From IMG/VR virus record IMGVR_UViG_3300025695_000010, positions 1-64,000 of that record: 64,000 bases of DNA, one strand, 5' to 3'. Position 1 is the first letter of the stretch, and each line of letters opens with the position of its first letter. The stretch comes from a virus. Below the pieces are notes generated by a model, which saw only the letters and a program-made list of their open reading frames with translations, searched no databases and was not told the origin of the DNA. Both the position numbers and the translations under genes were made by a program. Below are positions 9,729 through 40,419 of the stretch, one piece after another.

Positions 9729-9949
9729 TGAGTCTTTCCGACGAGGAAGTATTTTCACTAGCCGATGATATGGAAAATGAAATCAAACAGATTAAAGACA
9801 ATTGGTATCGTATCGGATGGTATATGAGGGGTAGTGCAAATATTCACGACTTGATTAACGATACCGATGTTGGTGATTTGGAAATTTTTAATAATATTAT
9901 CAAAGACAATATCGAAACTAGTAAGACTACTAAACTACCTTGGATTTAA
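9728..9949 (+). CDS. Small protein coupled to the gp26-like gene
   Basis: Protein of 73 residues that starts at a GTG overlapping the TAG of the previous gene, so translation is coupled. Sequence is acidic and helical (MSLSDEEVFSLADDMENEIK at the start), with a conserved-looking WYRIGWYMRGS. Coupling to the hub gene suggests a chaperone or assembly factor, comparable in position to T4 gp51, which follows gp26. The length is much shorter than T4 gp51 (249), so homology is not claimed. It converges with the 461-aa gene, with the two ends sharing four bases. Confidence 0.75.
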   Translation: MSLSDEEVFSLADDMENEIKQIKDNWYRIGWYMRGSANIHDLINDTDVGDLEIFNNIIKDNIETSKTTKLPWI

Positions 9950-11331
9950 TTAATTCTTGCTCGATCTGCTGCAATAGCATCCAACGCATTTTCTTCGTTG
10001 CCTGGTCTTACAGTAGGCGGCGCTCCAACTGATCTACTGCTGCTTACTCTGCCTCTAGGAACCACTGGAGCAGTACTTTGTCCAGTACCCGGAGGTGTTT
10101 CACCTGTTGTTGAAGGTTCTTCTGTTGTTGAAGGTTCTTCTGTTGTTGAAGGTTCTTCTGTTGTTGAAGGTTCTTCTCTTGTCATTGGACCAAAGTCTTC
10201 AGCCATCATCATTTCTCTTCTAGCTCGAGTGTAGTACGGAACTCTTCTGCTTTCAATGCTAGTACCTGGAGGAAATATTAAATCCTGAAACACAAGTCTA
10301 GCCCACTGCGATGTTGCAAAAGCACTGCCGTTTACTCCTGCACGTTCTCTTGTACCAGGATCTGCAAACCCACTAGCTTGGGCAGCACCACTGGCTGCAA
10401 AAAAGTCTTCGCTGCCAATCAAGCCTCCGGTAATGCTATTAAGTGTGTTTGCTGCACCTTGCATACCTGCTCCTGCTAATTCAACTGCACCTTGTAGCAT
10501 TGAGCCTATTATACTTTCTTGACCCCATTCAACAATCCAGTCAACTATTCCTTGTTGTACAGCAGGCCTAGTAACTGCATAAACAAGCAACTGAAATCCA
10601 GCTTCAGAAACAACTGCACTAATAATTGCCGGTACAGCACCAATACCGGTAGCCCCTACTGCAAGTTGCCCAGCTCTAACCATGTTTCTAATTCCTCTAA
10701 GCACGTTAAGGTATCTTGGCGATCTAAGAATTGCTAGTAAAATTACACTTAGCTGAATTGAATACATTCCCCAGGCAACTTGTATTTTATCTTGATATTC
10801 AGCTTCGGTAATTTCTCCATTGAGCATTTCTGCTTCAATGTTTGCCATAGTAGTTAATATGCCGTCTCTTAATTGCTCTTCTACTGCAAATGCTCTAAGA
10901 ACTCGCATAAGCACAGTGCCAGTTCTGCTTGCCATAAATGCAGCTACTCTAGGTGCAGTTTGTCTAGTTATTTGTCCAGGATTTGAAAAACGTATTTTTG
11001 ATCGTAATAAGTTTCTACTAACTACATTACCTCTTGTCCTTAAAGATGCTCTGTTACCTCTAGTTTTCCATTGCTCTTGAAAATCTCGTGCTGCTGTTAA
11101 TGCACCTCTGTTAGTTGTAATTCCATCATCGCCAACTGCAAATCTAAAAACATCTCTGCCCTGTACAAAATAATACGAATTACCTACTTGTCTAATTACG
11201 CCTTCAGCAGCAGCAGCACCGGCAGCTGCACCACCAGCTGCACCAGTAGCAGCAATGTCTAATAAGTCAAACGTATCCTGATCTTCTTTTAAGAAAATAG
11301 ATTTTCGATTAGATAATTCAGATAATTTCAT
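9946..11331 (-). CDS. Unknown 461-aa protein with hydrophobic core and EPSTTE repeats
   Basis: I do not recognise this protein. The N-terminal 25 residues (MKLSELSNRKSIFLKEDQDT and onwards) resemble leader-like starts of phage virion proteins. An Ala/Gly-rich stretch follows at about 30-45. Hydrophobic helices lie around residues 190-260 (SIQLSVILLAILRSP, AVPAIISAVVSEAGFQLLVY), and the C-terminal 80 residues are Pro/Thr/Glu-rich with four EPSTTE repeats (DNA 10104-10175). Hydrophobic segments may be membrane-inserted or may be buried. A perfect TATAAATA late promoter lies 31 bp upstream, so it is probably made late and could be packaged or structural. The gene sits alone between the hub genes and the non-coding island. 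Confidence 0.75.
   Translation of the reverse strand: MKLSELSNRKSIFLKEDQDTFDLLDIAATGAAGGAAAGAAAAEGVIRQVGNSYYFVQGRDVFRFAVGDDGITTNRGALTAARDFQEQWKTRGNRASLRTRGNVVSRNLLRSKIRFSNPGQITRQTAPRVAAFMASRTGTVLMRVLRAFAVEEQLRDGILTTMANIEAEMLNGEITEAEYQDKIQVAWGMYSIQLSVILLAILRSPRYLNVLRGIRNMVRAGQLAVGATGIGAVPAIISAVVSEAGFQLLVYAVTRPAVQQGIVDWIVEWGQESIIGSMLQGAVELAGAGMQGAANTLNSITGGLIGSEDFFAASGAAQASGFADPGTRERAGVNGSAFATSQWARLVFQDLIFPPGTSIESRRVPYYTRARREMMMAEDFGPMTREEPSTTEEPSTTEEPSTTEEPSTTGETPPGTGQSTAPVVPRGRVSSSRSVGAPPTVRPGNEENALDAIAADRARIN
10104..10175. repeat. Four tandem 18-bp repeats inside the 461-aa gene
   Basis: Four copies of the unit CTGTTGTTGAAGGTTCTT lie head to tail (plus-strand reading) and encode EPSTTE on the minus strand. 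Unit length is a multiple of three, so copy number can change without breaking the frame. Confidence 0.95.
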
Positions 11332-11362
11332 TTACAAATATTCCATGTTTTTATTATATATG

Positions 11363-11370
11363 TATTTATA
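11363..11370 (-). promoter_or_regulatory. Perfect T4 late promoter TATAAATA
   Basis: On the minus strand the full T4 consensus TATAAATA occurs 31 bp before the ATG of the 461-aa gene at 11331. This is the closest match to the T4 consensus in a promoter position in the window. Confidence 0.75.
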
Positions 11371-11372
11371 TG

Positions 11373-11415
11373 AAGTGAGCTTTGCTCACTTGTGTTTACG
11401 CTATCGCTTAACACA
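11373..11415. repeat. Pair of adjacent hairpins
   Basis: AAGTGAGC (11373-11380) pairs with GCTCACTT (11384-11391) across a three-base loop. Next to it TGTGTT (11391-11396) pairs with AACACA (11410-11415), and a run of six T begins at 11421. Read rightward, the second hairpin and T-run look terminator-like, but no rightward gene ends here. Confidence 0.6.
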
Positions 11416-11481
11416 AAATATTTTTTAATAATAAACAAGGCATATGCTTATGCATATGCATTTAATATTATGTAGATTAAT

Positions 11482-11541
11482 CTGGTCAGACGGAACCTGT
11501 TTATGGTCCCGTCCTCTCAAACATTATGTGAGTATCACCAG
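11482..11541. repeat. Possible three-way-junction RNA fold
   Basis: CTGGT (11482-11486) can pair with ACCAG (11537-11541), enclosing a strong hairpin GACGG/CCGTC (11489-11493 with 11509-11513, extended by ACC/GGT) and a weaker hairpin CTC/GAG (11516-11518 with 11530-11532). A further GTAGGTT/AACCTAC stem follows (about 11554-11560 with 11599-11605). Pairing was found by eye; the transcribed strand is not known. Confidence 0.4.
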
Positions 11542-11615
11542 CCGAGATCGGAAGTAGGTTTTTATTATACTGCTACACAATGGGCTCTGACCTTTCCCAA
11601 CCTACGTCGACATTA

Positions 11616-11649
11616 TGTATATTATAATATACATTATCCTGGATAATGT
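11616..11649. repeat. Overlapping palindromes
   Basis: A perfect 18-bp palindrome (11616-11633, TGTATATTA and its complement) shares three bases with a second inverted repeat, ACATTATCC (11631-11639) and GGATAATGT (11641-11649), with a single central base. It could be a cruciform, a protein binding site or a transcript end. Confidence 0.75.
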
Positions 11650-11866
11650 ACAATATAGTATACAATATTCCCCCGCTTCGTTCCTAGTGCTAAAGGGTTT
11701 TTGTGTGTAATTTGCAGTTTTTCGACAGCCAACAATCTATCTATACCAACTAGTGAGCCCAATTCTTTTGATGGCTTCCTACCTCTGGGTAGTCAATCAG
11801 TATGTTACGTGTGCTTCTATACGAGAGCTTTTTCCACAGCGGTGTTTTTAAACTGGCCCGCCAACC

Positions 11867-12310
11867 TTATGTGTTGGATTGTTTTGCCTGTTGTTCAAGT
11901 AGTGCCTGTCTTAACTTTTCTGAGCCGCCTACACGTACATTAATGATACCGTTGTAGTATTCGTCTGTTTCTAATACTCGCCTATCAAACTGCTCTCGTG
12001 CTTCAATGTAGCTCATCTCTGCTCTACTTTTGCAAAAGTACAGTATTTCTCTTGTGAAATGTTCTTGGCCTAGTTTTTTAATGTCTGCGTTAAGTCTATC
12101 TGAGCTGCCCCAGTACTCGCGCCAGTCGCTTTCTTTAAAGCCTCTGCGTTTGTTCTTCTTGCCTTTGAGTGGTGGCTTGGTTGTTTTAAACTTTGCTAGT
12201 TTTTTGCCTACGTACTTTTGATTGTTGGTAAGATTTGTTATAAGGTAAACAAAGCCTTCATACTCATCTGGTATTAAATTTATTTCTTTACCTTTAAACA
12301 ACCAACTCAT
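11867..12310 (-). CDS. GIY-YIG homing-type endonuclease (SegE-like)
   Basis: Protein of 147 residues with a GIY-YIG nuclease core: VYLI (residues 21-24, the GIY equivalent) and KYVGKK (about 32-37, the YIG equivalent), then basic residues and a helix with EAREQFDRRVL that holds the likely catalytic Glu. T4 encodes free-standing Seg nucleases of this type, which spread by cutting phage genomes that lack them. There is no obvious C-terminal DNA-binding module, so specificity must lie in the short basic linker (KTTKPPLKGKKNKRRGF). It sits beside the non-coding island and is flanked by the 12-bp direct repeat ACATTATGTATA (11610-11621 and 12311-12322). Confidence 0.85.
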   Translation of the reverse strand: MSWLFKGKEINLIPDEYEGFVYLITNLTNNQKYVGKKLAKFKTTKPPLKGKKNKRRGFKESDWREYWGSSDRLNADIKKLGQEHFTREILYFCKSRAEMSYIEAREQFDRRVLETDEYYNGIINVRVGGSEKLRQALLEQQAKQSNT

Positions 12311-12327
12311 ACATTATGTATAGTCGA

Positions 12328-12552
12328 TTATTTTTTCTTCTTCCGTTTTTGATCTTGTCGATAGCCTTCTAATACATTATTGTATTTTTTTATTATTTCT
12401 TCTTGCCTTTGTTTTGCTAAATTTATAAGTTGCCTTAATTCACGCCTTGCTGCTCTTTTAGTTCTTTCACTAGGCTTATGTTCAAACTTTTCGTTTGTTT
12501 CAAAATATTTTAGATATGTCTTAACAAGTTTGTCGTGTGTGTCGTCTGTCAT
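12328..12552 (-). CDS. Small basic protein after gp46
   Basis: Protein of 74 residues, very basic and helical (KTKRAARRELRQLINLAKQR-like middle; ends in a run of lysines). Its ATG overlaps the TGA of gp46 (ATGA), so it is translationally coupled to the recombination genes. A nucleic-acid-binding or polymerase-associated role would fit the charge. I do not recognise a family. Confidence 0.75.
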   Translation of the reverse strand: MTDDTHDKLVKTYLKYFETNEKFEHKPSERTKRAARRELRQLINLAKQRQEEIIKKYNNVLEGYRQDQKRKKKK

Positions 12553-15353: not shown

Positions 15354-15385
15354 TACAGTATAATGGAGAATACTGTAAAGATCAA
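15354..15385 (-). promoter_or_regulatory. Sigma70-type promoter with overlapping inverted repeat before gp47
   Basis: On the minus strand TTGATC (15380-15385) and TATACT (15357-15362) are separated by 17 bp. The -35 box overlaps the stop codon region of gp55. An inverted repeat with 8-bp arms, TACAGTAT (15354-15361) and ATACTGTA (15370-15377), covers the -10 and spacer and could be an operator or an RNA hairpin in the leader. Confidence 0.55.
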
Positions 15386-16206
15386 CCTTTATTTGCATTT
15401 TCTCTACGTTGTGCTGCTTCCCATTCGCCGTTATGTAGTCTAGTATGACTAGGATTCATGTCATTCATCTCAAGTATGTCATCCCTAATGTTCTGATTAC
15501 GCTTTTCCAAGTTGATAACACGAACAAAACTGTTAGTAACTGCTGCTGTGTAGTAGGCAAACGGGTTGTTTGACTTTGATTCGTCAAACTGCAAGCCAAT
15601 TTGCGATAATTGCAGTATTGCTTGCCCTTTCATTTCGTCATTATAGGTATATCCACGTACATTTCCACGAGTTGCATACCGATCAACTAGTTTTAACCAC
15701 ATCATAGCAAGTTTATTGGTAGCCATGCCGTGTGTCTTATCAAAATGACCGTTTTCCATACCGCCCTTCCAATGACTTTTTCCTACACAAATTAAATTGT
15801 CGTCATCGTCAAACTTATAATGCTGAAATGGTGGAAAATTAAGTTTTGTTTTGGTATCTGCCATTGTTTTTGGGTTCTTTTTACGCCCGGGTTCGTCTGG
15901 CACGTGGTCAAACATCATAATACGAAAGACAAGATCTTGTTTTTTAATTGTTTTGTAGTCTACTTCGCAATCTGCCATTTTTGTTTTCTTATTAATAGCT
16001 TTTTGCTGCTCGTATGCACGTTGACTTTGTAGTTTTGCTTTATTTCTTTTAGCTTCTGCTACTGTTCTAATGTTTATTTTGTCAACACTTGGCAAAATAA
16101 TATCATAATGTGCATATTCTGGTGCAACGTAACTGCAAAATGTTGCTTTTGATTTATGTATCTCGGCTAACATGTCTTTGTTGTTTAAATAATTTACTCT
16201 TTTCAT
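15382..16206 (-). CDS. 55: Late-transcription sigma factor gp55
   Basis: Minimal sigma factor that directs host RNA polymerase to late promoters with a TATAAATA-type -10. The N-terminus VNYLNNKDMLAEI matches the T4 gp55 start, and the core region-2-like part is at about residues 190-240 (RGYTYNDEMKGQAILQLSQI, FDESKSNNPFAYYTAAV, SFVRVINLEKR). It has 274 residues, against 185 in T4: an extra basic and aromatic segment of about 130 residues lies between the two conserved parts. The C-terminus is short and polar. A near-perfect sigma70 promoter drives it, in keeping with early or middle expression. Confidence 0.88.
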   Translation of the reverse strand: MKRVNYLNNKDMLAEIHKSKATFCSYVAPEYAHYDIILPSVDKINIRTVAEAKRNKAKLQSQRAYEQQKAINKKTKMADCEVDYKTIKKQDLVFRIMMFDHVPDEPGRKKNPKTMADTKTKLNFPPFQHYKFDDDDNLICVGKSHWKGGMENGHFDKTHGMATNKLAMMWLKLVDRYATRGNVRGYTYNDEMKGQAILQLSQIGLQFDESKSNNPFAYYTAAVTNSFVRVINLEKRNQNIRDDILEMNDMNPSHTRLHNGEWEAAQRRENANKG

Positions 16207-26829: not shown

Positions 26830-29800
26830 ATGGCATATGAAGATCAGCAACCAGAATTTCCAGTTGGTGACAATAGTAAAAAAAGTAGTAGATTTTTACC
26901 TCGCTATTTTAGAACTAGTACAAATGAAAAACTTGTAAGTTCTACTGTAGATCAGTTATTTTCGACTGGTGCAGTTGAAAAGATTAATGCTTTTATTGGC
27001 AGAAAAAATGCTAAAGCTAATATTAATAACAGTACATATCTTACTGAAATAAACTCCGTAAGATCAAATTATCAATTAGATCCTAGTATAAACATCAAAG
27101 ATGATTTGGATAATGTTGTATTTCATAAAGATTATGTTGACTACATTGGTCAACTTAACACTTTTAATAGTAATACTCTTAACCATAGTCGTCTAAATGA
27201 GCAAGAAATTTATTCTTGGAACCCGCATATTGATTTTGATAAGTTTACTAATTTCCGTGAATATTATTGGTTACCAAACGGCCCGCAAACTGTTACTGTA
27301 TTTGGCAATCAGCAAGGTGTTTCAAGTACATACAAAGTTGAAGTAGTAGACGACGGTGATAATTTTGCTTATTTGTTTACACCTAACAAATTAACAAGAA
27401 ATCCTTTAATTACTCTTTATAGAGGTCAAACTTATAGATTTGAAATTAACACGCCAGGGCATCCTTTTGCACTTGCTATTAGTAGAAAATTTTTACCAGG
27501 ATTAACATTTGAAGATAGTGTTACAAATGTTAGTACACTTTATAACGAAGGTGTAACAACTACAAATGAAGATAGCGACGGATATGTAGAAACTGGCGTA
27601 ATTGAGTTTACAGTTCCAGCTAATGCACCTAATGAGCTTTATTATATTAGTAAAGAAGATATTAATACAAGCGGATTATTTAATATTGCAGATGCTGAAG
27701 AAAATTCTATTTTAGATGTCGAAAACGAATTATTAGGCAAAAGAAATTATACTACCGCAGAAGGCTGGAGTCTAAGTAATGGTATGAAAATTTCTTTTGT
27801 TGGAAATATTACTCCAGAAAAATACAGCAGCGGAGAATTCTATGTTGAAGGTGTTGGAAAAGAAATTGTACTAATATCTGTTGAAGATTTAACAACTTCG
27901 GATCTATTAGCAGAAGATGAACAGATTCCGTTTGATGCATTTGGTTTTGATAGACTCCCGTGGAGTACAAGTATCGGTTATCCTGCAACAAAGGATTACA
28001 TTATATCAAATAGATCTAGTAAAGATAAAAACCCTTGGGCAAGATATAATAGATGGTTTCATATTGATGTAATTACAAAATCAGCAGAAATTAACAAACA
28101 AGATTATATCTTGCCAGAAAATAGTAGAGGTAAAAGACCTATTATTGAATTTGCACCAGGCATTAAAATGTGGCACAACGGTACAATTTGTAAAGACGCA
28201 ATTGATTTAGTTGACGACTGGACAAATGATATTTTTTCAGTTATTGAAGGGTCACAAGGATACAATATTGATAACGTAGATGTTGTAGATGGAATGCGTA
28301 TTCTATTTGTAAATGATAACGATCCTTTAGTAAATAATAAAATTTATAAAGTAGAATTTATTAAGTTTCAAAATAGCACACAAATTACACTCAAAGAAGA
28401 ACTTGATGCAGAGCCAAACGAAAATGAAATTGTGTTGGTAAAAGAAGGCAAACTCAATGCCGGCAAGCAATATTTCTTTGATGGAACAAGTTGGAAAAAA
28501 TCACAAGATAAAACTGCAATAAACCAAGCGCCATTATTTGATCTTTTTGATAAAAACAATATTTCTTATGGCGATATTTACTATGAAAGCAGTAATTTCT
28601 TTGGAAATAAAATATTTGCATATAAGCAAGGCACAGGCACAAACGATACAGAATTAGGATTTCCAATTTCTTATAAGAATATTAATAATGTAGGCGACAT
28701 TGTTTTTGAATTTGATTTACTAAAACAAAGCAATACATATATTATTAACGACGAAACTATAGATATTCCTAGTAATCAAGGATTTGTAAAAATTACAGAT
28801 AGTTATACTGGAGAAATTTCTTTTGAAAATGCATGGAAGAAACATTTTGAAAAAAGCAATCAAGCAGTAATACTTGACTTTCAAGGATCGCAACAAACTA
28901 ATAATTTTGTTGTAAACTGTTTTGATAAGAGTGCAACAATAAGTGATTTAAAAATTAAGTTATTTACTAACAGAAGTTTCTTAAAAGAAAACATTGATTA
29001 TACTTTAACAACAAATTCTAAACAACAAGTTTTAATTGTTTTAAACAATGATATTTCTGAAAACGATAGATTAATTATTAAATGTTATTCAACGTCTAGT
29101 AAAAATGAAAACGGATATTATGAAACTGCATATAATTTAGAAAGAAATCCTAACAACTTAGATGTAACTGAATTTACAATCGGTGAAGTTAACGATCATG
29201 TACAGACTATAGTCGAAAACAATGACAACTTTAATGGAATACATCCAGGAGTTGGTAATTTACGAGACTTAGGAAATATTGAAATTTATGGAGATAGGTT
29301 TGTACAGCATTCAGGGCCTATAGGGTTAGCACTGTATCATTTAACATCAAAAGATTATAATGTTGTTAATTCTTTAAAATTTGCTTTAAAAGAATACAGC
29401 AAATTTAAAAGAGAGTTCTTAAGAATTGCTACATATGACGGATACAATAACACAGATGTAAAGCATGTAGATTATTTGTTAGAACAATTTGCTTTAAATA
29501 AAACAAGAAACGATGCATTTTATAATAGTGATACGGTGCCATTTGGCGGCAAAAATATAATTGAGTATACTGTTTTAGATTCTGGAAATCCTTATTATCC
29601 ATTAACTAGTGCATTTAATTTAAATAAACTAACAAGTAAATCTGTTTTAATATACAAAAACGGTACACAGTTAATTTACGAAAACGAATATACATTCACC
29701 GAAGAAGGATTTGTATATATTTATTCTGTTGAAATTGACGACAAAATTGAAATACACGAGTACGAAACAACTGACGGGTGTTTTGTTCCGCCAACTCCTA

Positions 29801-32800
29801 GTAAGCTAGGTTTGTATCCGTTATACGAACCAAAAATTTATATTGATAATACATACAGCACTCCAACTAAAGTAGTTATAGGACATGACGGAAGCAGAAC
29901 AATTGCGTTTAACGATTTCCGTGATGACTTGTTACTAGAGCTAGAAAAACGTATTTTTAATAATGTTAAAACACGTTATAATCCTGATAATTTTGACTTA
30001 TTTAATTTTATACCCGGGCGTTATAGAGACACAGGGTTAAATCAAAAAGATGTTAATAACATAATGATTGCAGATTTTATAAATTGGACTAATGTAGCTC
30101 AAGTTTATGATTTCAATGTCAACAAATACAGTGATATAAATGATTCGTTTACTTACAATTATAAATCGTCTAGCGATATTAATGGAACAAAATTAGAAGG
30201 ATTTTGGAGAGCTGTTTATAAAAATGCTTACGATACAGATACACCAAATTTAACTCCTTGGGAAATGTTGGGATTCAGCATACAGCCAACATGGTGGGAA
30301 GAAGTATACGGCCCAGCACCTTACACAAGTAATAACTTGCCGTTATGGAAAGATTTAGAAGCTGGAATTATTAGAGAACCTAATACGTCTGTTGTAAAAG
30401 ATGTTAGATTTGCTAGACCAAATTTATTAAAACAAATACCAGTTGACGAATATGGAAGAATAAGAAGTCCTTTCCAAACAGGATTTTCAAAAGATTTTAG
30501 TTTTGCAAATCAGATTGGATATAGTTTTGAGTTCGGAGATCAAGGTCCTGCTGAAACTGCATGGCGCCGAAGTTCAGAATATCCATTTAGTTTACTAAAT
30601 GCAATGTTATTGTTACGTCCTGCACAGATATTTGGGTTAACTTACGACTATAGTAAAATTTCTAAAAACTTAGCTGGAAATATTATATATGATCATAAAA
30701 CATCAATATCAACAACTAACATTGATTTTAATAATAAAAGTGCAGGACTTTTAAACTATATTAAAGGTTATATAGATTATAATAATATGTCATACGAAAC
30801 ATATGTAGAATATGTAAAATCAATTAACTTTAATCTAAGTTTTAGATTAGCAGGATTTAGTGATAAAGATAAAATAAATCTTGTATTGGACAGTAAAACA
30901 CCAAATAGTTCGGGCGATATATTTACTCCGCAAGAAAATTATAATCTTTTCTTAAAAACTAGTAGTCCTTATGAAGTAGTTACATATAGCGGTGTTGTAA
31001 TTGAAAAAGTTCCAACTGGGTATAAAATAAATGGATATGATAGATATAATCCAACGTTTCCTTATTATAGTGCAACAGAAACTAATAGCGATCCGTTTGT
31101 TACAGTTGGCGGTATAAGCGAAACTTTTAGTACTTGGAACGAAGAAAAACTTTACGTTGCAGGCGGCATTGTAAGATATGATAATAACTATTATAGAGTG
31201 ACAGAAACTCATACAAGCAATAATATCTTTGATACTACTAAATTTTCAAAATTAGGAACTCTTCCTACAGTCGGCGGTCGTACAGCAAGATTTAGTAAAC
31301 GGTTTTCATCGCAATTATCTTACCTTCAGTACGGAACTGTGTTTACTTCATATCAGCAAGTAATTGATTTTCTGTTAGGATATGACCGATATTTAAAATC
31401 TGTTGGATTTATATTTGATTATAATAATGCAAAGTACGGAATAGTTGAAAACTTTAGATTAAGTGCTAAAGAATTTTTATTCTGGACAACACAAAACTGG
31501 GGAGAAAACAGTATAATAAGTTTGTCTCCTAGTGCAAACAAAATACAGTTTAAAAGAGATTTCTATTTGCCAGATAGTTTGTATGACAGTATTTTTGATT
31601 ACGAAGTTTTAGATCAAGACGGTAAATTATTATCAAATGAATTTGTTAATTTAGTAAGAGATACAGATAACAGTTTTAGTCTTGCAAGTAACGACGATAA
31701 TGTTGGTGTTTATTTTATTCGTTTATTCTTAGTGCAAAAAGAACATTGCATTGTGATTGATAATGATACTGTTTTTGCAGATACAATTTACAATGAAACC
31801 AGTGGATACAGACAAGAACGAATTAAAGTAACTGGCTATAGAACTGCTAACTGGAGCGGTACTTTAAACATACCAGGATTTGTGTTCGACGAACCTAAAG
31901 TTACAAAATGGAAAAGTTATAAAGATTATATAATTGGCGATGTAGTACAATATAAAGACAAATATTATACTTCGATAGTTAGTCATACAAGTGGTGAATT
32001 TTTTAACAACATAAATTGGTCAACATTAGTAGAAAAGCCGGTTAATCAATTAATTCCTAACTTTGATTATAGAGCTGCTCAATTTGCAGATTTTTATGAC
32101 TTAGATACTGATAATTTTGATACTGAGCAGCAAAGACTTGCACAGCACTTAATTGGATATCAAAAAAGAGAATATTTAAAAAATATCATTAACGACGATA
32201 TTAGTCAGTATAAATTTTATCAAGGAATGATACAAGACAAAGGTACTAAAAATGTGCTAACTAAATTATTTGATAAACTTAGTAGTGCAGACAAAGACAG
32301 TATTGAATTTTTCGAGGAATGGGCAATCAGAGCAGGTCAATATGGTGCAACTGATAGTTTTGACGAATATGAAATTACCATTGACGAATCAAAATATAAA
32401 CTAACACCTCAGCCTTTTGAATTAGTTAAATCAGTTGATAATACTAGAACTGATTTTATATATCAAGTTCCATCTACTGATTTACAAGTTAAACCAGCAA
32501 ATTACAACCAACAAATTTTTGAATTTGAAAACTATGAAGAAATAACAAAAACCGCGGGCTATGTAGCGCCTGCGCAAATTGATTTTATAACTCCTAATGT
32601 AAGTCAGTTGTTAGGGTTTGATATTAACTTAGTTAAACAAGGACAGTTTGTTTGGGTTACAGACGACGGACTAGATTGGAATGTATATGAGTTTGCTAAA
32701 AAAGAATACCAAGTTGAAAAAATAGAAAAAACAATTACAGGTTTTAAAGCAATTTTTGACATTAATCACGATTTACAAAGCGGTGACATTATTGGGTTAA

Positions 32801-35800
32801 CCAATGTCGCAAACGAATTAGACGGGTTTAGACAGGTAATCTATACTGGATATAAAGAAGTTGAATTTTATACTGAAGATAACATTTCAGAAGAAGGCAT
32901 TGATTTATCAGATAGTAGCAGAGGAATAGTTATAAAAGTTGCGCCGCGAAGATTTGAAAACATTGACGCATATAATAATGTTTTAAACGTCAATGATGTT
33001 TCTGTTGGTAACAGAGCTTGGATAGATAATTTAGGAAATGACAAATGGTCGGTTCTTGAAAATACTCCTGTATACGATGTTGAAGATATTATAGTTAATC
33101 CGCAAACAGGATTAAAAACAAATTTTGGCGATGCAATAGCAGTAGATCAAACAAACACTAGACTTGCAATTGGAGATCCAAATTCTAATGGCAGAGTTAT
33201 TGTTTACAACCGTATAGGTGAAAACGGTGATTTTTCATCTACAGAAAATTACGGAGCCGAAACTTCTATTATTGGTAATAATAGCGAATTTGGATATAGT
33301 GTAAGTATGTCTCCAAACGGAGAATATTTGTTTGTTGGCGCTCCTAACGCAGCTAATCTATTAACAAGATATAAAGGCAATATTGTACTAGGCACTAGTT
33401 ATAGCGCAGGAGAAATTGTTAATGACAGAGGCACTCTTTGGAGAGCTAAGGTTGACATAGACGGGTCGGATACTAGCACAGTTAACAAACAAAGCCAAGA
33501 CTGGGAACGTGCTAATATAATATCAGTAGATGAAGACGGTTCGCCAACTGCTTCTATTAGAGGCGCAGTTTGCGTTTATAAAAAAGCAGAAGTTGGTACA
33601 ACATACGAATTAGAAACAACAATATTAAGTCCAATTCCAACAACAAGTGAAAGATTTGGCAGAATTGTAAAATGCAGAAAAGACATCGATGGCATTTTAA
33701 GATTGTATGTTGCTAGTGATGCTGCAAGCGGTAGAATTTATTTCTTTGATAACGATACAGACGATGGTACTTGGAAGTTTAGCAGAGATGACAATTTTCG
33801 AGGAACATTCTCGGCAGCAGAGAGTTATATTCAGGGTGAAATAGTATACTACAATAATACAGCCGGTGATACAGGTGATAGCAATTTATATCGTGCAAAA
33901 AAAGACATGTCAGCACAAGCATTTAATTTAAACAATTGGGAGCTACTAGATCAGTTTGTTGATTATAAAGGTTATGTTCCTCCTCAAAATGAATTATTAA
34001 ATGAAGAAAGCGATAATTTAGGAGTTGCTGGCGGATATAACATTGCTACTGATTTTGATCTTAGTACAAACGGAGAAGTACTAATTTTAAATGGTGAAGA
34101 TACTCTCAATACAAATAAAGTAAGTGTATATAGACGTGAGAATAATAGATATACATATTACGAAACAATTGAAACTACTGATTTAAGCGAAGAATTTGGC
34201 AGTAATATTGCTATCAGTGCCAACGGAAATGCTATTGCTGTAAGTGCTATTAGAAACAACGATAAAGGTACATCGTTTGGATCAGTTTATGTTTACAGAT
34301 ATACAGGTAACGAGTATGCGTTAAATCAAACGTTGTATCCTCCAACCGGTGCCGAAGGTGAACTGTTTGGTATTGATTTAAACTTTAGCGAAGACAATTT
34401 AATTGTTGCTAGTGCAAATGGTGATAGAGCAGTCCCGACATTGTTTGATCAGACGCTAATACGTGTTAATGATACATCGTTTGATAATAATACAACAAAG
34501 TTTTTTAACAAGTTTGAAGATAGCGGAACTATCTATATATTCCAAAACTTTAATAACAACTACTTGTATGCTGAAGAACTTGATTGGAATTACGATACAT
34601 CTTTAAGTTCAAAACCTATTATTCTTACAAACTTTAATCACATATATATCAGTTATCCAAGATTAGAATATACAGCAGACTTTGGTGTTGTAATTAATTT
34701 AAAACGTGAAAAGGGTACATACAGTTGGAAAAAACTATCAGAACAAATAGACACACCTAATATTAATAAAATCAAACGTGCATTCTTATTTGATAAGAAA
34801 ACAAATGATATACTAACGTTCTTAGATGTAATTGATCCTATTCAAGGTAAAATTGCAGGCCCGGCAGATGAAGTTATTGATTTAAAATTAGCGTTTGATC
34901 CTGCAAGTTATTCAGTTGATGTAACTACTAATAACAAAGGCGATTACTGGGCAGCTGAATATGTAGGACAGTACTGGTGGAATACAGAATCTACAAAGTG
35001 GTATAATCCTTATCAAGGAAATGCAGAAAATCAAACAAGTTTTTGGAATAAACTTGTTCCTAGTAGTAAAACAGAAGTTTTTGAATGGGTTGAAAGTGAT
35101 TACTTACCGAGTGAGTGGGACGAATTAGCTGATACAAACGACGGTATTATTGAAGGTATTAGCGGTCTCAGCAAATACGGCGACTTTAAATATAGTGTCG
35201 GTCGTAAATATAATGCAATAACAGAAACATTTGAAACCAAATATTATTTCTGGGTACGTAATAAAAAATTGTTATCTAATGAAAATAAAAAAATAAGTTC
35301 AAATGATGCAGAACAATTAATAAAAGATCCGCAAAGCGCAGGATACGTGTTTATGAGTGCATTGAGTACAAACAAGTTTGCATTACACAATGTCGGATCT
35401 TTTATAAAAGACAAAGATATTGCATTGCATATTGATGTATACAAAGGCGAAATAAACGACAGAAATATACATACTGAATACAAGTTACTAAGCGAAGGAC
35501 TAGCAGGAAGTAACCCACCTGCATCGTTTATTGAAAAATGGATTGATAGTTTAGTTGGCTACGATGAAAATTTAAGACCTGTACCTGATACAGAATTAGG
35601 TGAAACTAAGAAGTATGGAATTGAAACTCGTCCTAGACAAGGCTTATTTAGAAACGGATTAGAAGCTCTTAAGCAAACAATTGAGAGAACTAATTTAATT
35701 TTAAAACAACAAATAATAACAGATTTTAAAGATATTACAGATTTGTCAAAGCAAGATCAACAGCCAAGAATACTTGAAGGTAAATTTGATATTAGTGTTG

Positions 35801-38800
35801 ACACAATTAACGATATACAAACTGTTGGCGTTGCTAACGCTAAACGTGCAGTTCTAAATCCTACTATTGACAACGGAAAATTAATTTCCGTTGAAATTCA
35901 AAATCAAGGATATGGATACAAATCTGCTCCAATTGTTACTATTACTGGTACAGGAACAGATGCAGAAGTTACAACTACTATTGATAATTTCGGCAGAGTC
36001 AACTCGGTTACTATTGTTGATTCTGGTAAAAATTATAGTCTGATTGACTTACAAGTACGTCCGTTTAGTTTGCTAGTTGAAGCTGATGCCGAACTTAATG
36101 GTAAATGGGCAATTTACGAATACGATTATGCTGGCAATTTTGAAAGAGTAAAGTATCAAAAATGGAATGTTGAAAATTTCTGGTCATATATTGATTGGTA
36201 TGACACCGACTACGATGAAAATACTGCAATTGATTATTTAATTGACGGCAGCTATCAATTGAACAGTTTGAATGATCGTATTGGCGATGTTGTTAAAATT
36301 AAAGATGTTGGAGCAGGAGGCTGGCTACTATTACAAAAAATTGATGTACAGCCCGAAGTCGATTATACTGTAAACTACAAAACAATTGGTAGACAAAACG
36401 GCACAATTAAGTTTAATAGTAAATTATATCAAAACACTAATTTTGGATTTGATAAAATTGGATTTGATAATTTAGTTTACGATACAGAACCAGTTAACGA
36501 AAGACGAATTATACTTGAAACTATAAAAAATAAAATATTTGTTGAAGATTTAGAAATTAAATTCAACGATATATTGTTTACAGGTATTAGATATGCACTT
36601 TACGAACAGCAAACAGTTGATTGGATTTTTAAAACAAGTTTCTTAACAGCAAAACACAACTTAGGAGTTTTAGATCAGCGCATTAATTTTAAATCAGACA
36701 ATCTTGATAGTTATAAAGATTTTATTAGTGAAGTAAAACCTTATAGTAGTAAAATTAGAGAATACATTAGTGCGTACGAAAGCCTTGAAAATTCTCAAAC
36801 TATGATTAGTGATTTTGATTTGCCCCCGAGATACGACAATATACAAAATAAAATTGTAACCGAAACTGTTAAATTTTACAACGAACGTGTTGTAGGTGAT
36901 AGAGAGTTTATTGAAACTTATCCTCAAAAAAATTGGTTAGACAATTACAAGTTTAAAATACAAGAATTGGTAATTTATAATCAAGGACATGGTTTAAATT
37001 CTCAACCGGTTATTACAATATCTGGAGGCAATGGACCGACTATAATAGGCAAAGGCTATAGAACAGGTGATAAATTAACTTCTATTGATATTGATTATAG
37101 CGATGCATTGTATACAAGTCAACCAAGTATTGAAATTAATGGTAGCTATGATGACGATTATGAAATTCCAAGAATTATAGCAGTACTAGGAGATAGTCCG
37201 GTAAGAAGCACACACATGATTATGAAGTTTGATCGTGTGTCGGGTAATTTTGTGTTTACAGATTTAAAAACAGTTGAAACATTTACAGGCACAGGTGCAC
37301 AAAAAACATTTAATACCAAATGGCCATTAGATTTACGTAAAAGCAGAATTAGCATTACAGTAAATGGCAACGATGTTTTATATACAGATTTTGAAACTAG
37401 TAATATAAAAAATACATCTAAAACGTATGAAAGAACACTAGGTCAAATTGTATTTGAAACTGCTCCTGCAAATAACGCAGTAATTGAAATAACATATTAC
37501 AAAGATTCTGCAATGTTGTCAGCAGCCGACAGAATTAATGCGTATTATAACCCAACTAATGGCATGCCAGGTATTACAAAAAACGAAGATGGCACTACAA
37601 ATTTAGGTCAGCTTATGACTGGTATTAACTATGATGGTGTAAATTTAGAAAGTGTCGACTTTGCAACCGAGCAAGGCTTTGATATTGGCGGGTTTGGTAC
37701 TATACCGTGGGATATCTTTAGTCAAACTGAAGATGAAATTTTTACATTAGATGGAAGTACATTAGTACTAACGTTAAGTAAGCCGTTAGAAGACGGTGTT
37801 GCATACAACATTTATAAAAATAATGTGCGTATAGACGATCCTAATTTTGATGGCAGTAGTGCAATTACTAATAAAAATGCATTATTAAATACTGTATACG
37901 GAGACGGTGTTACTGACGAAATATTAATTAGCAACGAGGTGCCGACTGCTGCTGGCGATATCTTTATTGTACGAAAAGAAACCAGCGATGGCAGTTTTGA
38001 ACCAGCTGATAATGTGCTTGATACAGAACTTACTGGAGGCGGATTTAATAATACAGCCAAAGGATTAAATAGTGGAGAAATTACAGTTGATGGCGACGGA
38101 TTTGTTACACCTATTACAAGTGCAGGTCCAGAAGAAGTAGTACCGGGTCAAATTGTAGATACCTTAGATATACAAGTCAAACACAAGCCAGCTGACGGTC
38201 AAGGTATAAAAACCAGTTATATCTATAAAACCAAAGGCAACACATTGTCGTATTCAATAGACATGTTACCTCAAAGTCAGCAAGCTATAATTGTTAACTT
38301 AAATGGAAATAAAGTTGATATTGATTCGTATACTGTAGATTATGAAAATAATCTGCTAGTATTCGAAGATGATAGCACAATACAAGATGATCAAGACTTG
38401 CATATTATTGTTGTTGGCAATAACGGCAATGATATATTAGAAAGCGACACATTTATTGGCGATGGAAATACTAAAATATTTGTTACTGGTATTAAGTTTA
38501 CCAATCCGATTAGTAGTTTTGTAACAATAAACGGAGTTGTTCAGCAAGTAGGATTAAATTATGAAATTTTTGAAACTGATAGTAGTTACAAACAAGAAAA
38601 TTGCGCCGCTTTAAGATTTAGTAGAGCTCCATCAGCCGGCGAACTTATTGGATTTAGTCTTTATAATAATGATACAAAATCGTTTAGTGAAATTATGGTA
38701 GATAAGAGTTTTGTTGGAGACGGTGTAAATTATGTTTACAAGTTTGACAAAAACAACATGACTTATACAGCAAAACCGTTTACTCATAAAATGCTTGTTA

Positions 38801-40419
38801 AACAAGGTGATAAATTTTTAAATGCAGGCTACAATATTAGACACATTGTAACCAATGATCGAGTATACGGCATACAACAATGGCAGTTTGAGAAACCTTC
38901 AAAAATATCAAACGATGATGTTGTTGTAATTTTAAATAATAGAGTAATTACTGATACAAAGGATTATAGATGGGATGCTATTAACAGTAGAATTGAATTT
39001 TTAAATCCTACTATAGGTAACGTAGGTGATATTTTAGAAATTTATATTTTAGGTAACGGCGAATATTATTTTATAGACACTGTTGTTGATTTAGTTGACA
39101 TGGATGATAGTACTAAACTTGGAGTATTGCACGACGAAGGCGATTTAATATCTTTTGTGATGGAAGATAGTACTCAAATTTTTGCAACTGTAAAGTCATC
39201 TGAAGAAACTGATAACGGTGTTCGTTTAACACTCAATGGTTATTTTAAAGAATTAAAAGTTAAATCAGCAGAAAATGATATTCCGTTAGAATTAACCGGT
39301 GTCAAGTCTGCAAGTTATCCACTAGCTGTTAGAATAGACAATGTAACATTTGTTGAAAGTGAAAATTTAACATTTAAAAAAGTTCCTGAAGAAGGCGAAC
39401 GAGTTGAAATAATTACATTTAGCGAACATGATGTTAACAATTTTGATAGATTGAGTTTTGAAGTATTATATACTCCGGTTATTTCTTCAAGTAGTGACGA
39501 GTACAATACAGCTATTCAGCTAACAAATGGTCGAATAAAACTTAATCAGCCAGCCGCTGGTGTTAATTATGTATGGGTAATACAAGATAATAAATTGTTA
39601 AGACCTAGTGTTGATTATAATTTAATGAGCAATAACACTGTTGTTAATTTGTTTAATAAACCTGCAGATAATGAAGTAGTAGAAATAATACAATTTGCTG
39701 CAAATGTTACAAGTGAAAAATACGGATTTAGAATTTTTAAAGACATGTTAAATCGTGTTCATTACAAACGTTTAAACGAAGCAAGTGTATTTAAATTAGG
39801 TCAACCTTTGAACTATTTTGACCAATATATAACTTTAGAAGATACAACAGGTATTCCAATTCCAAATAGAACAAACGGCAAGCCTGGAGTATTGTTTATT
39901 GAAGGAGAACGTATTGAGTACTATGCTATAGAAGGAAATTTATTAAGACAAATACGCAGAGGTACATTAGGAACAGGTGTTAAAACCCAGTATGCAGCAG
40001 GAACTAAAATGCAAGAGCAGGGCGAAACTGAAACTATTCCTTATAAAGATAAAGATCTACAACAAATATTTGTATCCGATGGAAGCACAAATATATACAA
40101 TTTAGATTTTGATATTTTAAATTATAACGAAGTTGAGGTTATAGTAGGAGGTAAGAAACTTAGAAAGCCTGCTACACAAGAGTTTACAGTTTTTGATCCA
40201 CTAATTGACCAAGATAGTCCCGAAGGTGATAATGTAGTACAGCCAGAGTTTACTATTGACGCAGACAACGATACTATTATACTTAGAGACGATGTTCCAA
40301 CAGGTGTAAGAATTGTAATACAGCGTAAACAGGGTAAAATTTGGACAGATGATCTATCAACAAGCGATTCAAAAATTGCAAGGTTTATAAGAGCCGGAAC
40401 AATTAAGTTAAGCAAATAA
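26830..40419 (+). CDS. Giant 4529-residue baseplate-region structural protein
   Basis: One uninterrupted reading frame of 13.6 kb following gp6, where T4 has gp7 (1032 aa) and gp8. Visible parts: N-terminal NFREYYWLPNGPQTVTVFGN (about 138-157) and a domain with YRGQTYRFEINTPGHPFALA (about 197-216), both seen in virion proteins of marine T4-like phages; FG-GAP-like repeats at about 2098-2530; GYGYKSAPIVTITGTG-type beta repeats near 3025 and 3390; and at least four copies of an F-x-GDG-x-x-x-x-F beta-sandwich motif near 3487, 3874, 3960 and 4414. The C-terminus is short and basic (GTIKLSK). Role as a wedge/peripheral baseplate and receptor-reach protein is inferred from place and domains. A single protein may cover functions split between gp7, gp8 and gp10 in T4. 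Confidence 0.85.
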   Translation: MAYEDQQPEFPVGDNSKKSSRFLPRYFRTSTNEKLVSSTVDQLFSTGAVEKINAFIGRKNAKANINNSTYLTEINSVRSNYQLDPSINIKDDLDNVVFHKDYVDYIGQLNTFNSNTLNHSRLNEQEIYSWNPHIDFDKFTNFREYYWLPNGPQTVTVFGNQQGVSSTYKVEVVDDGDNFAYLFTPNKLTRNPLITLYRGQTYRFEINTPGHPFALAISRKFLPGLTFEDSVTNVSTLYNEGVTTTNEDSDGYVETGVIEFTVPANAPNELYYISKEDINTSGLFNIADAEENSILDVENELLGKRNYTTAEGWSLSNGMKISFVGNITPEKYSSGEFYVEGVGKEIVLISVEDLTTSDLLAEDEQIPFDAFGFDRLPWSTSIGYPATKDYIISNRSSKDKNPWARYNRWFHIDVITKSAEINKQDYILPENSRGKRPIIEFAPGIKMWHNGTICKDAIDLVDDWTNDIFSVIEGSQGYNIDNVDVVDGMRILFVNDNDPLVNNKIYKVEFIKFQNSTQITLKEELDAEPNENEIVLVKEGKLNAGKQYFFDGTSWKKSQDKTAINQAPLFDLFDKNNISYGDIYYESSNFFGNKIFAYKQGTGTNDTELGFPISYKNINNVGDIVFEFDLLKQSNTYIINDETIDIPSNQGFVKITDSYTGEISFENAWKKHFEKSNQAVILDFQGSQQTNNFVVNCFDKSATISDLKIKLFTNRSFLKENIDYTLTTNSKQQVLIVLNNDISENDRLIIKCYSTSSKNENGYYETAYNLERNPNNLDVTEFTIGEVNDHVQTIVENNDNFNGIHPGVGNLRDLGNIEIYGDRFVQHSGPIGLALYHLTSKDYNVVNSLKFALKEYSKFKREFLRIATYDGYNNTDVKHVDYLLEQFALNKTRNDAFYNSDTVPFGGKNIIEYTVLDSGNPYYPLTSAFNLNKLTSKSVLIYKNGTQLIYENEYTFTEEGFVYIYSVEIDDKIEIHEYETTDGCFVPPTPSKLGLYPLYEPKIYIDNTYSTPTKVVIGHDGSRTIAFNDFRDDLLLELEKRIFNNVKTRYNPDNFDLFNFIPGRYRDTGLNQKDVNNIMIADFINWTNVAQVYDFNVNKYSDINDSFTYNYKSSSDINGTKLEGFWRAVYKNAYDTDTPNLTPWEMLGFSIQPTWWEEVYGPAPYTSNNLPLWKDLEAGIIREPNTSVVKDVRFARPNLLKQIPVDEYGRIRSPFQTGFSKDFSFANQIGYSFEFGDQGPAETAWRRSSEYPFSLLNAMLLLRPAQIFGLTYDYSKISKNLAGNIIYDHKTSISTTNIDFNNKSAGLLNYIKGYIDYNNMSYETYVEYVKSINFNLSFRLAGFSDKDKINLVLDSKTPNSSGDIFTPQENYNLFLKTSSPYEVVTYSGVVIEKVPTGYKINGYDRYNPTFPYYSATETNSDPFVTVGGISETFSTWNEEKLYVAGGIVRYDNNYYRVTETHTSNNIFDTTKFSKLGTLPTVGGRTARFSKRFSSQLSYLQYGTVFTSYQQVIDFLLGYDRYLKSVGFIFDYNNAKYGIVENFRLSAKEFLFWTTQNWGENSIISLSPSANKIQFKRDFYLPDSLYDSIFDYEVLDQDGKLLSNEFVNLVRDTDNSFSLASNDDNVGVYFIRLFLVQKEHCIVIDNDTVFADTIYNETSGYRQERIKVTGYRTANWSGTLNIPGFVFDEPKVTKWKSYKDYIIGDVVQYKDKYYTSIVSHTSGEFFNNINWSTLVEKPVNQLIPNFDYRAAQFADFYDLDTDNFDTEQQRLAQHLIGYQKREYLKNIINDDISQYKFYQGMIQDKGTKNVLTKLFDKLSSADKDSIEFFEEWAIRAGQYGATDSFDEYEITIDESKYKLTPQPFELVKSVDNTRTDFIYQVPSTDLQVKPANYNQQIFEFENYEEITKTAGYVAPAQIDFITPNVSQLLGFDINLVKQGQFVWVTDDGLDWNVYEFAKKEYQVEKIEKTITGFKAIFDINHDLQSGDIIGLTNVANELDGFRQVIYTGYKEVEFYTEDNISEEGIDLSDSSRGIVIKVAPRRFENIDAYNNVLNVNDVSVGNRAWIDNLGNDKWSVLENTPVYDVEDIIVNPQTGLKTNFGDAIAVDQTNTRLAIGDPNSNGRVIVYNRIGENGDFSSTENYGAETSIIGNNSEFGYSVSMSPNGEYLFVGAPNAANLLTRYKGNIVLGTSYSAGEIVNDRGTLWRAKVDIDGSDTSTVNKQSQDWERANIISVDEDGSPTASIRGAVCVYKKAEVGTTYELETTILSPIPTTSERFGRIVKCRKDIDGILRLYVASDAASGRIYFFDNDTDDGTWKFSRDDNFRGTFSAAESYIQGEIVYYNNTAGDTGDSNLYRAKKDMSAQAFNLNNWELLDQFVDYKGYVPPQNELLNEESDNLGVAGGYNIATDFDLSTNGEVLILNGEDTLNTNKVSVYRRENNRYTYYETIETTDLSEEFGSNIAISANGNAIAVSAIRNNDKGTSFGSVYVYRYTGNEYALNQTLYPPTGAEGELFGIDLNFSEDNLIVASANGDRAVPTLFDQTLIRVNDTSFDNNTTKFFNKFEDSGTIYIFQNFNNNYLYAEELDWNYDTSLSSKPIILTNFNHIYISYPRLEYTADFGVVINLKREKGTYSWKKLSEQIDTPNINKIKRAFLFDKKTNDILTFLDVIDPIQGKIAGPADEVIDLKLAFDPASYSVDVTTNNKGDYWAAEYVGQYWWNTESTKWYNPYQGNAENQTSFWNKLVPSSKTEVFEWVESDYLPSEWDELADTNDGIIEGISGLSKYGDFKYSVGRKYNAITETFETKYYFWVRNKKLLSNENKKISSNDAEQLIKDPQSAGYVFMSALSTNKFALHNVGSFIKDKDIALHIDVYKGEINDRNIHTEYKLLSEGLAGSNPPASFIEKWIDSLVGYDENLRPVPDTELGETKKYGIETRPRQGLFRNGLEALKQTIERTNLILKQQIITDFKDITDLSKQDQQPRILEGKFDISVDTINDIQTVGVANAKRAVLNPTIDNGKLISVEIQNQGYGYKSAPIVTITGTGTDAEVTTTIDNFGRVNSVTIVDSGKNYSLIDLQVRPFSLLVEADAELNGKWAIYEYDYAGNFERVKYQKWNVENFWSYIDWYDTDYDENTAIDYLIDGSYQLNSLNDRIGDVVKIKDVGAGGWLLLQKIDVQPEVDYTVNYKTIGRQNGTIKFNSKLYQNTNFGFDKIGFDNLVYDTEPVNERRIILETIKNKIFVEDLEIKFNDILFTGIRYALYEQQTVDWIFKTSFLTAKHNLGVLDQRINFKSDNLDSYKDFISEVKPYSSKIREYISAYESLENSQTMISDFDLPPRYDNIQNKIVTETVKFYNERVVGDREFIETYPQKNWLDNYKFKIQELVIYNQGHGLNSQPVITISGGNGPTIIGKGYRTGDKLTSIDIDYSDALYTSQPSIEINGSYDDDYEIPRIIAVLGDSPVRSTHMIMKFDRVSGNFVFTDLKTVETFTGTGAQKTFNTKWPLDLRKSRISITVNGNDVLYTDFETSNIKNTSKTYERTLGQIVFETAPANNAVIEITYYKDSAMLSAADRINAYYNPTNGMPGITKNEDGTTNLGQLMTGINYDGVNLESVDFATEQGFDIGGFGTIPWDIFSQTEDEIFTLDGSTLVLTLSKPLEDGVAYNIYKNNVRIDDPNFDGSSAITNKNALLNTVYGDGVTDEILISNEVPTAAGDIFIVRKETSDGSFEPADNVLDTELTGGGFNNTAKGLNSGEITVDGDGFVTPITSAGPEEVVPGQIVDTLDIQVKHKPADGQGIKTSYIYKTKGNTLSYSIDMLPQSQQAIIVNLNGNKVDIDSYTVDYENNLLVFEDDSTIQDDQDLHIIVVGNNGNDILESDTFIGDGNTKIFVTGIKFTNPISSFVTINGVVQQVGLNYEIFETDSSYKQENCAALRFSRAPSAGELIGFSLYNNDTKSFSEIMVDKSFVGDGVNYVYKFDKNNMTYTAKPFTHKMLVKQGDKFLNAGYNIRHIVTNDRVYGIQQWQFEKPSKISNDDVVVILNNRVITDTKDYRWDAINSRIEFLNPTIGNVGDILEIYILGNGEYYFIDTVVDLVDMDDSTKLGVLHDEGDLISFVMEDSTQIFATVKSSEETDNGVRLTLNGYFKELKVKSAENDIPLELTGVKSASYPLAVRIDNVTFVESENLTFKKVPEEGERVEIITFSEHDVNNFDRLSFEVLYTPVISSSSDEYNTAIQLTNGRIKLNQPAAGVNYVWVIQDNKLLRPSVDYNLMSNNTVVNLFNKPADNEVVEIIQFAANVTSEKYGFRIFKDMLNRVHYKRLNEASVFKLGQPLNYFDQYITLEDTTGIPIPNRTNGKPGVLFIEGERIEYYAIEGNLLRQIRRGTLGTGVKTQYAAGTKMQEQGETETIPYKDKDLQQIFVSDGSTNIYNLDFDILNYNEVEVIVGGKKLRKPATQEFTVFDPLIDQDSPEGDNVVQPEFTIDADNDTIILRDDVPTGVRIVIQRKQGKIWTDDLSTSDSKIARFIRAGTIKLSK

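Follow-up and report, generated by a model that had tools for sequence, protein, structure and literature searches.

A conserved, structured minus-strand RNA beside a GIY-YIG endonuclease gene of marine phages, probably akin to the multicopy RNA of RaK2-like phages

It is highly probable that a gene-free island in the DNA of a marine phage is a stand-alone structured RNA gene of about 420 nt on the minus strand, most likely acting in trans and probably sharing an ancestor with the multicopy RNA of RaK2-like phages. The stretch analysed here, referred to as the window, is 64,000 nucleotides long and comes from a virus record of IMG/VR that measures 64,065 bp. The island is conserved, strand-specific and non-coding, its 5' domain is structured, and its place beside a GIY-YIG endonuclease gene is constant.

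The window contains T4-type genes, among them gp46/gp47 and those for a late sigma factor, a baseplate hub and a GIY-YIG endonuclease of the SegE type. The phage is a member of a jumbo-phage group, and the best isolate matches of its gp46 are the jumbo phages PA5oct, Phosso, Atu_ph07 and RaK2-like phages. A previous sequence-only reading of this DNA had pointed to a gene-free region of about 500 bp beside the GIY-YIG gene, which is borne out: a gap of 535 nt (11332-11866), the biggest in 64 kb between ORFs of at least 90 aa, is flanked by a 461-aa ORF and the GIY-YIG ORF, both on the minus strand. The inverted repeats named in that reading are present in the gap, including the perfect 18-bp palindrome TGTATATTATAATATACA (11616-11633) and the hairpin with 9-bp arms (11489-11513), in which nine of nine pairs form only as minus-strand RNA, one of them being G-U. 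The proposed three-way junction is plausible, with GGTCAGA/TCTGACC (11586-11592 / 11484-11490) surrounding further helices. The features of the window form of the RNA, termed type A, are collected in Table 1.

Table 1. Features of the type A RNA and of neighbouring genes in the window
Feature	Coordinates	Strand	Basis or remark
Structured ncRNA, type A, ~420-440 nt	11425-11866	-	same-place conservation in dozens of contigs; covariation
5' domain, helices H1-H7	11670-11866	-	29 sequences, 38 pairs
Helices H1-H7 (approximate)	11861-11839, 11838-11808, 11828-11813, 11803-11743, 11741-11724, 11697-11670	-	
Hairpin insert of variable length, with 18-bp palindrome	11614-11669	-	alignments; missing from several relatives
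3' core domain	11462-11607	-	model R3: one match in each of nine type A contigs
3' core helix GGTCAGA/TCTGACC	11592-11586/11490-11484	-	
3' core hairpin	11513-11489	-	
Direct repeat R1 ACATAATG	11522-11529	-	first six bases same as R2
Direct repeat R2 ACATAATA	11466-11473	-	first six bases same as R1
Terminal 8-bp hairpin, U-rich tail	11440-11459	-	sequence changes, complementarity stays in relatives (alignment)
Two more hairpins, terminator or boundary elements	11390-11416 and 11373-11391	.	hairpins kept, sequence changing in relatives
461-aa ORF, late gene	9946-11331	-	borders the gap
SegE-type GIY-YIG endonuclease gene, directly upstream of RNA	11867-12310	-	PF19835, E = 2e-34; phrog_447
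gp55-like late sigma factor gene	15382-16206		

The 5' start of the type A RNA may fall within the GIY-YIG coding region, and the hairpin at 11440-11459 is its probable 3' end. The 5' domain is connected to the 3' core by the hairpin insert of variable length. Within the core, GTAGGTT (11605-11599) can pair either with a local ACCTAC (11559-11554) or with a distal AATCTAC (11478-11472), and the direct repeats R1 and R2 are located on either side of the core hairpin. The hairpins at 11373-11416, in the last 70 bp, precede TATAAATA (11363-11370, minus strand), which we take to resemble a T4 late promoter and which lies before the 461-aa late gene. Terminator-like sites numbered three against 0.5 expected. 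No own promoter of the type A RNA was found in the window, where promoter-like sites occurred at chance level. The earlier suggestion of a transcription stop zone holds for the last ~100 bp, with the hairpins at 11373-11416 and 11440-11459, and not for the remainder of the island.

Decisive evidence for a structure beyond chance comes from covariation among relatives, to which the sequence-only reading had no access. In the 5' domain, for which RNAalifold derived the structure from the same alignment that was used for counting, 93.4% of 1080 cells were paired and 143 were changed on both sides, with double-sided changes in 21 of the 38 pairs of the seven helices. For the alignment, 29 diverse type A sequences were selected out of 43 that represented a set of 93, without the chimeric and certain other rows. 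Shuffled controls gave 82.0% paired and 46.7 double-changed cells, while slid partners gave 34-42% and 4-24, respectively. Covariation among homologues, on which the sequence-only reading had made its proposal depend, is thus present. G-U cells (178) greatly outnumbered A-C cells (16), which identifies the minus strand as the one that would be transcribed. In the 3' core (28 sequences), 99% of cells were paired and only two were double-changed, the sequence there being too conserved to reveal covariation. Folding of the sequence alone was modestly better than that of shuffles, with a z-score of -2.4 on both strands, and shuffles as stable as the island numbered 0 of 100 for the minus strand and 1 of 100 for the plus strand. 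Moreover, 129 of 155 internal alignment gaps were one base long, so that a coding sequence does not fit. An ORF in the island was rejected for either strand: the longest had a median of 52 aa in type A and 41 aa in type B, mostly on the opposite strand, and was disrupted by one-base gaps. Conservation, covariation and strand asymmetry together support the reading as a phage non-coding RNA that had been offered from the letters of the window.

No relevant match to Rfam 15 was obtained for the window and its relatives, either at the gathering score or at permissive E-values; cmscan of the window at the gathering score and of 11200-12400 at E <= 10 gave no ROOL, GOLLD, intron or leader match. The tRNA/tmRNA search found none, with 0 tRNAs in 64 kb by ARAGORN. 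In a nucleotide search of annotated phages, the island gave chance-level matches only and the type B island gave none.

The conservation of the island was clear among marine loci. When its minus strand was compared by blastn with 80 loci retrieved through the GIY-YIG protein, dozens of them showed it downstream of that protein's gene, at 70-94% identity. Two exact-pattern scans of viral contigs recovered at least 120 type A stretches and 75 type B stretches. Among the matches listed, leaving out those in loci retrieved earlier, 189 pattern loci were examined: in all 171 marine loci whose flank reaches 600 bp or more, the GIY-YIG gene lies directly upstream on the same strand, and the remaining 18 have less than 600 bp upstream. 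Among the same listed matches, gp46/47 lies further upstream in 133 of the 171 loci, 36 being too short to tell and two showing something else (133 of 135 long enough). Given this adjacency and the co-occurrence of gp46/47, a linkage between RNA and nuclease is inseparable from synteny. Downstream of the island, every locus inspected had a same-strand late gene, which varied among relatives, with ORFs of 157-563 aa that lack a constant identity. The marine contigs carry one copy each of the RNA: model R3, built from the type A core, gave a single match in every one of nine type A records. Many marine contigs stop 24-214 bp into the island, as would happen if assembly broke there through strain variation or recombination (L015-L019, L023, L037, L038, L041, L042, L046, L052, L053, L064, L070, L073, L078, L080, L083 and L089).

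The first six bases of R1 and R2 were identical to each other in 140 of 140 sequences (102 type A and 38 type B), in seven variants; the comparison used anchors independent of the repeats, and 14 of 154 sequences were without an anchor. This concerted change in the sequences suggests one common ligand, or copying between the repeats. Pairing of R1/R2 with a third strand of their own locus was rejected, as no complement is conserved elsewhere in the same loci. R1 as a genome-wide motif was likewise rejected, with six copies in the window against 3.9 expected and with the copy before the GIY-YIG start not tracking the R1 variant of each phage.

In RaK2-like phages, a predicted RNA gene of ~530 nt occupies the corresponding syntenic position (gp47-gp46-nuclease-gap-baseplate hub), and the window displays the same order, gp47-gp46-nuclease-RNA-...-hub. 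A long gene-free gap occurs there in PA5oct, Phosso and RaK2-like phages. The nuclease beside gp46 differs, being GIY-YIG in the window (11867-12310), RusA in PA5oct, a Holliday junction resolvase in Phosso and endonuclease VII in RaK2-like phages (loci L284, L285, L287, L288 and L289), and the window GIY-YIG protein may be a substitute for a junction resolvase. A search of 12 incomplete marine records for RusA and endonuclease VII gave no match, and the endonuclease VII control also gave none.

The gap sequence of phage BF matches 31 phage records at several places per genome. A TATAAT (-10) box before the conserved stretch of ~530 nt and a stem with T-run after it were observed in 11 of 12 aligned sequences, XaC1 lacking both. 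In the RaK2-like core (13 sequences), 99.2% of 245 cells were paired, with 44 double-changed cells against 11.6 in shuffles and at most 5 with slid partners, and the covariation includes a pseudoknot. Covariance model R1 found five copies each in BF, CBB, XaC1, Hallingskeid, Kaldavass, XbC2, 7t3 and GAP32, four in PBECO4 and 121Q, and three in RaK2 with one more at E = 0.09. The RNA is therefore present in three to five copies in 11 of 11 RaK2-like genomes scanned, some of which also supplied sequences for building the model. In BF, each of the five copies occupies an annotated gene-free gap, these gaps measuring ~645-805 nt. Atu_ph07 gave a single match (E = 0.25), and T4, ICP1, PA5oct and Phosso gave none with this model. 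Since the PA5oct and Phosso gaps yielded no convincing match to model R2 either, homology is not claimed for them. The PA5oct gap (L284 7690-9030) is ~1.3 kb long with hairpins, and one part of ~130 nt is found twice more in the genome at 83-84% identity; possibly it is another multicopy RNA. The Phosso gap (L285 7910-8925) is a gene-free stretch of ~1 kb in the corresponding syntenic position, and the phage collection contains no relatives of it. Small hypothetical ORFs are annotated inside the RaK2-like RNA gene in 7t3, Kaldavass, SD-2_S15 and fENko-Kae01 (L287 6139-6943, L310 2261-3199, L308 2566-3209, L313 2316-3092, L311 2655-2807), and these annotations are probably spurious. Public phage records leave the RNA stretch unannotated or full of such ORFs.

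The connection between the marine and RaK2-like RNAs runs through type B. Of 15 type B loci, model R1 matched ten at E <= 0.025 (0.003-0.02 in register) and an eleventh at 0.39; every match fell within the island, with no match outside it in 259 kb. A match within the island was also obtained for all seven type B sources of another set, with E <= 0.02 in four of them, 0.9 in two and 7.4 in one. Furthermore, a sequence-only profile of the RaK2-like core placed 21 of 22 matches at the same spot of the type B island, individually weak with a best E of 0.03. A relation of type B to the RaK2-like RNA is consequently well supported by these models. Regarding type A, neither model R1 nor the merged model R2 gave a match, unfiltered searches included. 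Of 12 type B sources, the type A core model R3 hit only two in register (E 0.43-0.49), its two best matches lying off target, and a plain profile of the type A core found no type B island. The 5' domain of type A is modular, and some type A loci bear a 5' module otherwise of type B (67 nt, 92-96% identity). The proposed joining of type A to type B thus rests on position, exchange of the 5' module and the R1/R2 repeats, and the link from type A to the RaK2-like RNA is indirect. The two RNAs are alike in their place by gp47-gp46 before the baseplate hub and in being large, structured and outside Rfam, whereas the RaK2-like RNA is ~530 nt long with its own promoter and three to five copies, and that of the window is single-copy, located behind GIY-YIG and unmatched by the RaK2-like model. 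On balance, the marine island RNA is probably kin to the multicopy RNA of these giant phages of gut bacteria. A wider proposal is held tentatively and judged slightly less probable than its contrary: one ancient large RNA family, in each case adjoining gp46/47, would embrace the RaK2-like phages, the marine phages of the window and perhaps also PA5oct and Phosso, with three to five dispersed copies in the RaK2-like group and two identical presented repeats co-evolving with a partner. If true, it would form a third class of ornate phage RNA besides GOLLD and ROOL.

We infer the following course of events. The minus strand would be transcribed either independently, from a promoter belonging to the RNA gene, or together with the GIY-YIG gene, whose transcript would then contain the RNA as its 3' portion; in both cases the hairpin 11440-11459 would form the end. 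The RNA would fold into a modular, variable 5' domain and a 3' core that hardly varies, the latter displaying R1 and R2, two copies of one short sequence, on the flanks of a hairpin. As a scaffold or RNP, the RNA would offer both repeats to a common partner in trans rather than serve as a switch in cis. Action in trans is favoured because the downstream genes change, the RaK2-like relatives have their own promoter and terminator, and the copies are dispersed. Its origin would lie in an ancestral jumbo-phage RNA shared with the multicopy RNA of RaK2-like phages.

Other readings were weighed against this one. A leader or riboswitch-like switch in cis, in which GTAGGTTG alternates between ACCTAC and CAATCTAC and controls read-through into the late gene, would make sense of the two competing pairings, of the hairpins between core and late gene and of the same-strand late gene always found downstream. 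It is nevertheless unlikely: the downstream gene varies in length and kind, with no constant gene family as for a leader riboregulator and no match to Rfam leaders, and the late gene has the late-promoter-like TATAAATA of its own past the hairpins. In addition, the RaK2-like RNA stands tail-to-tail with the hub gene, with its own promoter and terminator, and the four further BF copies precede unrelated genes. The strict adjacency in 171 of 171 listed loci, together with the resemblance of R1/R2 to two sites for one ligand, might instead indicate a protein-RNA module in which the RNA is partner, guide or regulator of the GIY-YIG nuclease and the nuclease binds R1/R2. We regard this as quite unlikely, as the adjacency accompanies shared synteny (gp46/47 in 133 of 135 of the listed loci long enough), the RaK2-like RNA adjoins endonuclease VII, four of the five BF copies lie beside neither nuclease, and the Melnitz homologue of the GIY-YIG protein (68% identical) has a gap of only ~150 nt beside its gene.

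An element acting as DNA near gp46/47, such as a replication origin or a recombination or packaging site, is very improbable. Recombination nucleases are adjacent in all groups, the palindromic insert is AT-rich, and the many contigs ending within the island recall a recombination or assembly hot spot; yet the strand-asymmetric G-U pairing and one-strand covariation fit an RNA product, as do the promoter and terminator in RaK2-like relatives, and an origin would not occur as four to five dispersed copies. GIY-YIG genes are often intron-borne, and the compact, pseudoknotted RNA could recall the remnant of a group I or II intron with the GIY-YIG gene as its ORF. This idea, raised in the sequence-only reading along with a search of RNA families including group I introns, can hardly be sustained: the search, run with Rfam 15, found nothing of group I or II with the threshold as loose as E <= 10, both neighbouring ORFs are complete and form distinct genes in relatives, the island is constant in place and not an insertion, and RaK2-like phages have endonuclease VII there.

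The trans-acting RNA favoured here can be compared with large phage RNAs already described. GOLLD and ROOL form RNA-only cages, a solved ROOL measuring ~659 nt (PMC12286853), and an ncRNA of ~800 nt is the most abundant transcript of ICP1 (PMC7567579), this ncRNA and the lncRNAs of phage K being long transcribed gene-free stretches in lytic phages (PMC7567579, PMC9241854). ROOL is likewise a large, elaborate, pseudoknotted phage or prophage ncRNA without an assigned function, and GOLLD likewise a phage RNA with a conserved 3' part, a variable 5' part and no known function (PMC12286853). The window RNA differs from both in having no Rfam match; it is ~420 nt against the ~659 nt of the solved ROOL and half the length of GOLLD. 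ROOL is often located near tRNA islands, and the window has no tRNA. The ICP1 and phage K RNAs occupy other genomic places, and model R1 is unmatched in the ICP1 genome. Our best guess, by analogy, is a trans-acting ornate RNA that would work like GOLLD or ROOL and be a member of neither. Owing to the analogy with their cages and with the dominant ICP1 ncRNA, an abundant ornate RNA made during infection appears to be the most economical reading.

Large structured phage RNAs such as GOLLD and ROOL are abundant and ornate with no known function; this kind is familiar, and the island adds a family absent from Rfam 15. As far as the searches reach, the family is new, as are its three to five copies per genome and its fixed place beside recombination genes. 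No description of the island RNA was found in literature on related wording. Others have reportedly surveyed IMG/VR on a large scale for candidate structured RNAs, and their list might include the element. Relatives occur in several copies per genome in cultivated jumbo phages of E. coli, Salmonella, Cronobacter and Klebsiella, which makes transcription, structure and the effect of deletion accessible in laboratory strains.

Other observations concern the window itself. The family of its GIY-YIG protein, phrog_447, carries the label NAD synthetase, copied by many phage records, contrary to the Pfam assignment of this protein (11867-12310) to the SegE-type GIY-YIG family. A second gap between ORFs of at least 90 aa, 524 nt long, is located at 628-1152 and is partly filled by small ORFs. 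Finally, an open frame of ~4529 codons at 26830-40419 corresponds to a giant protein of the structural region.
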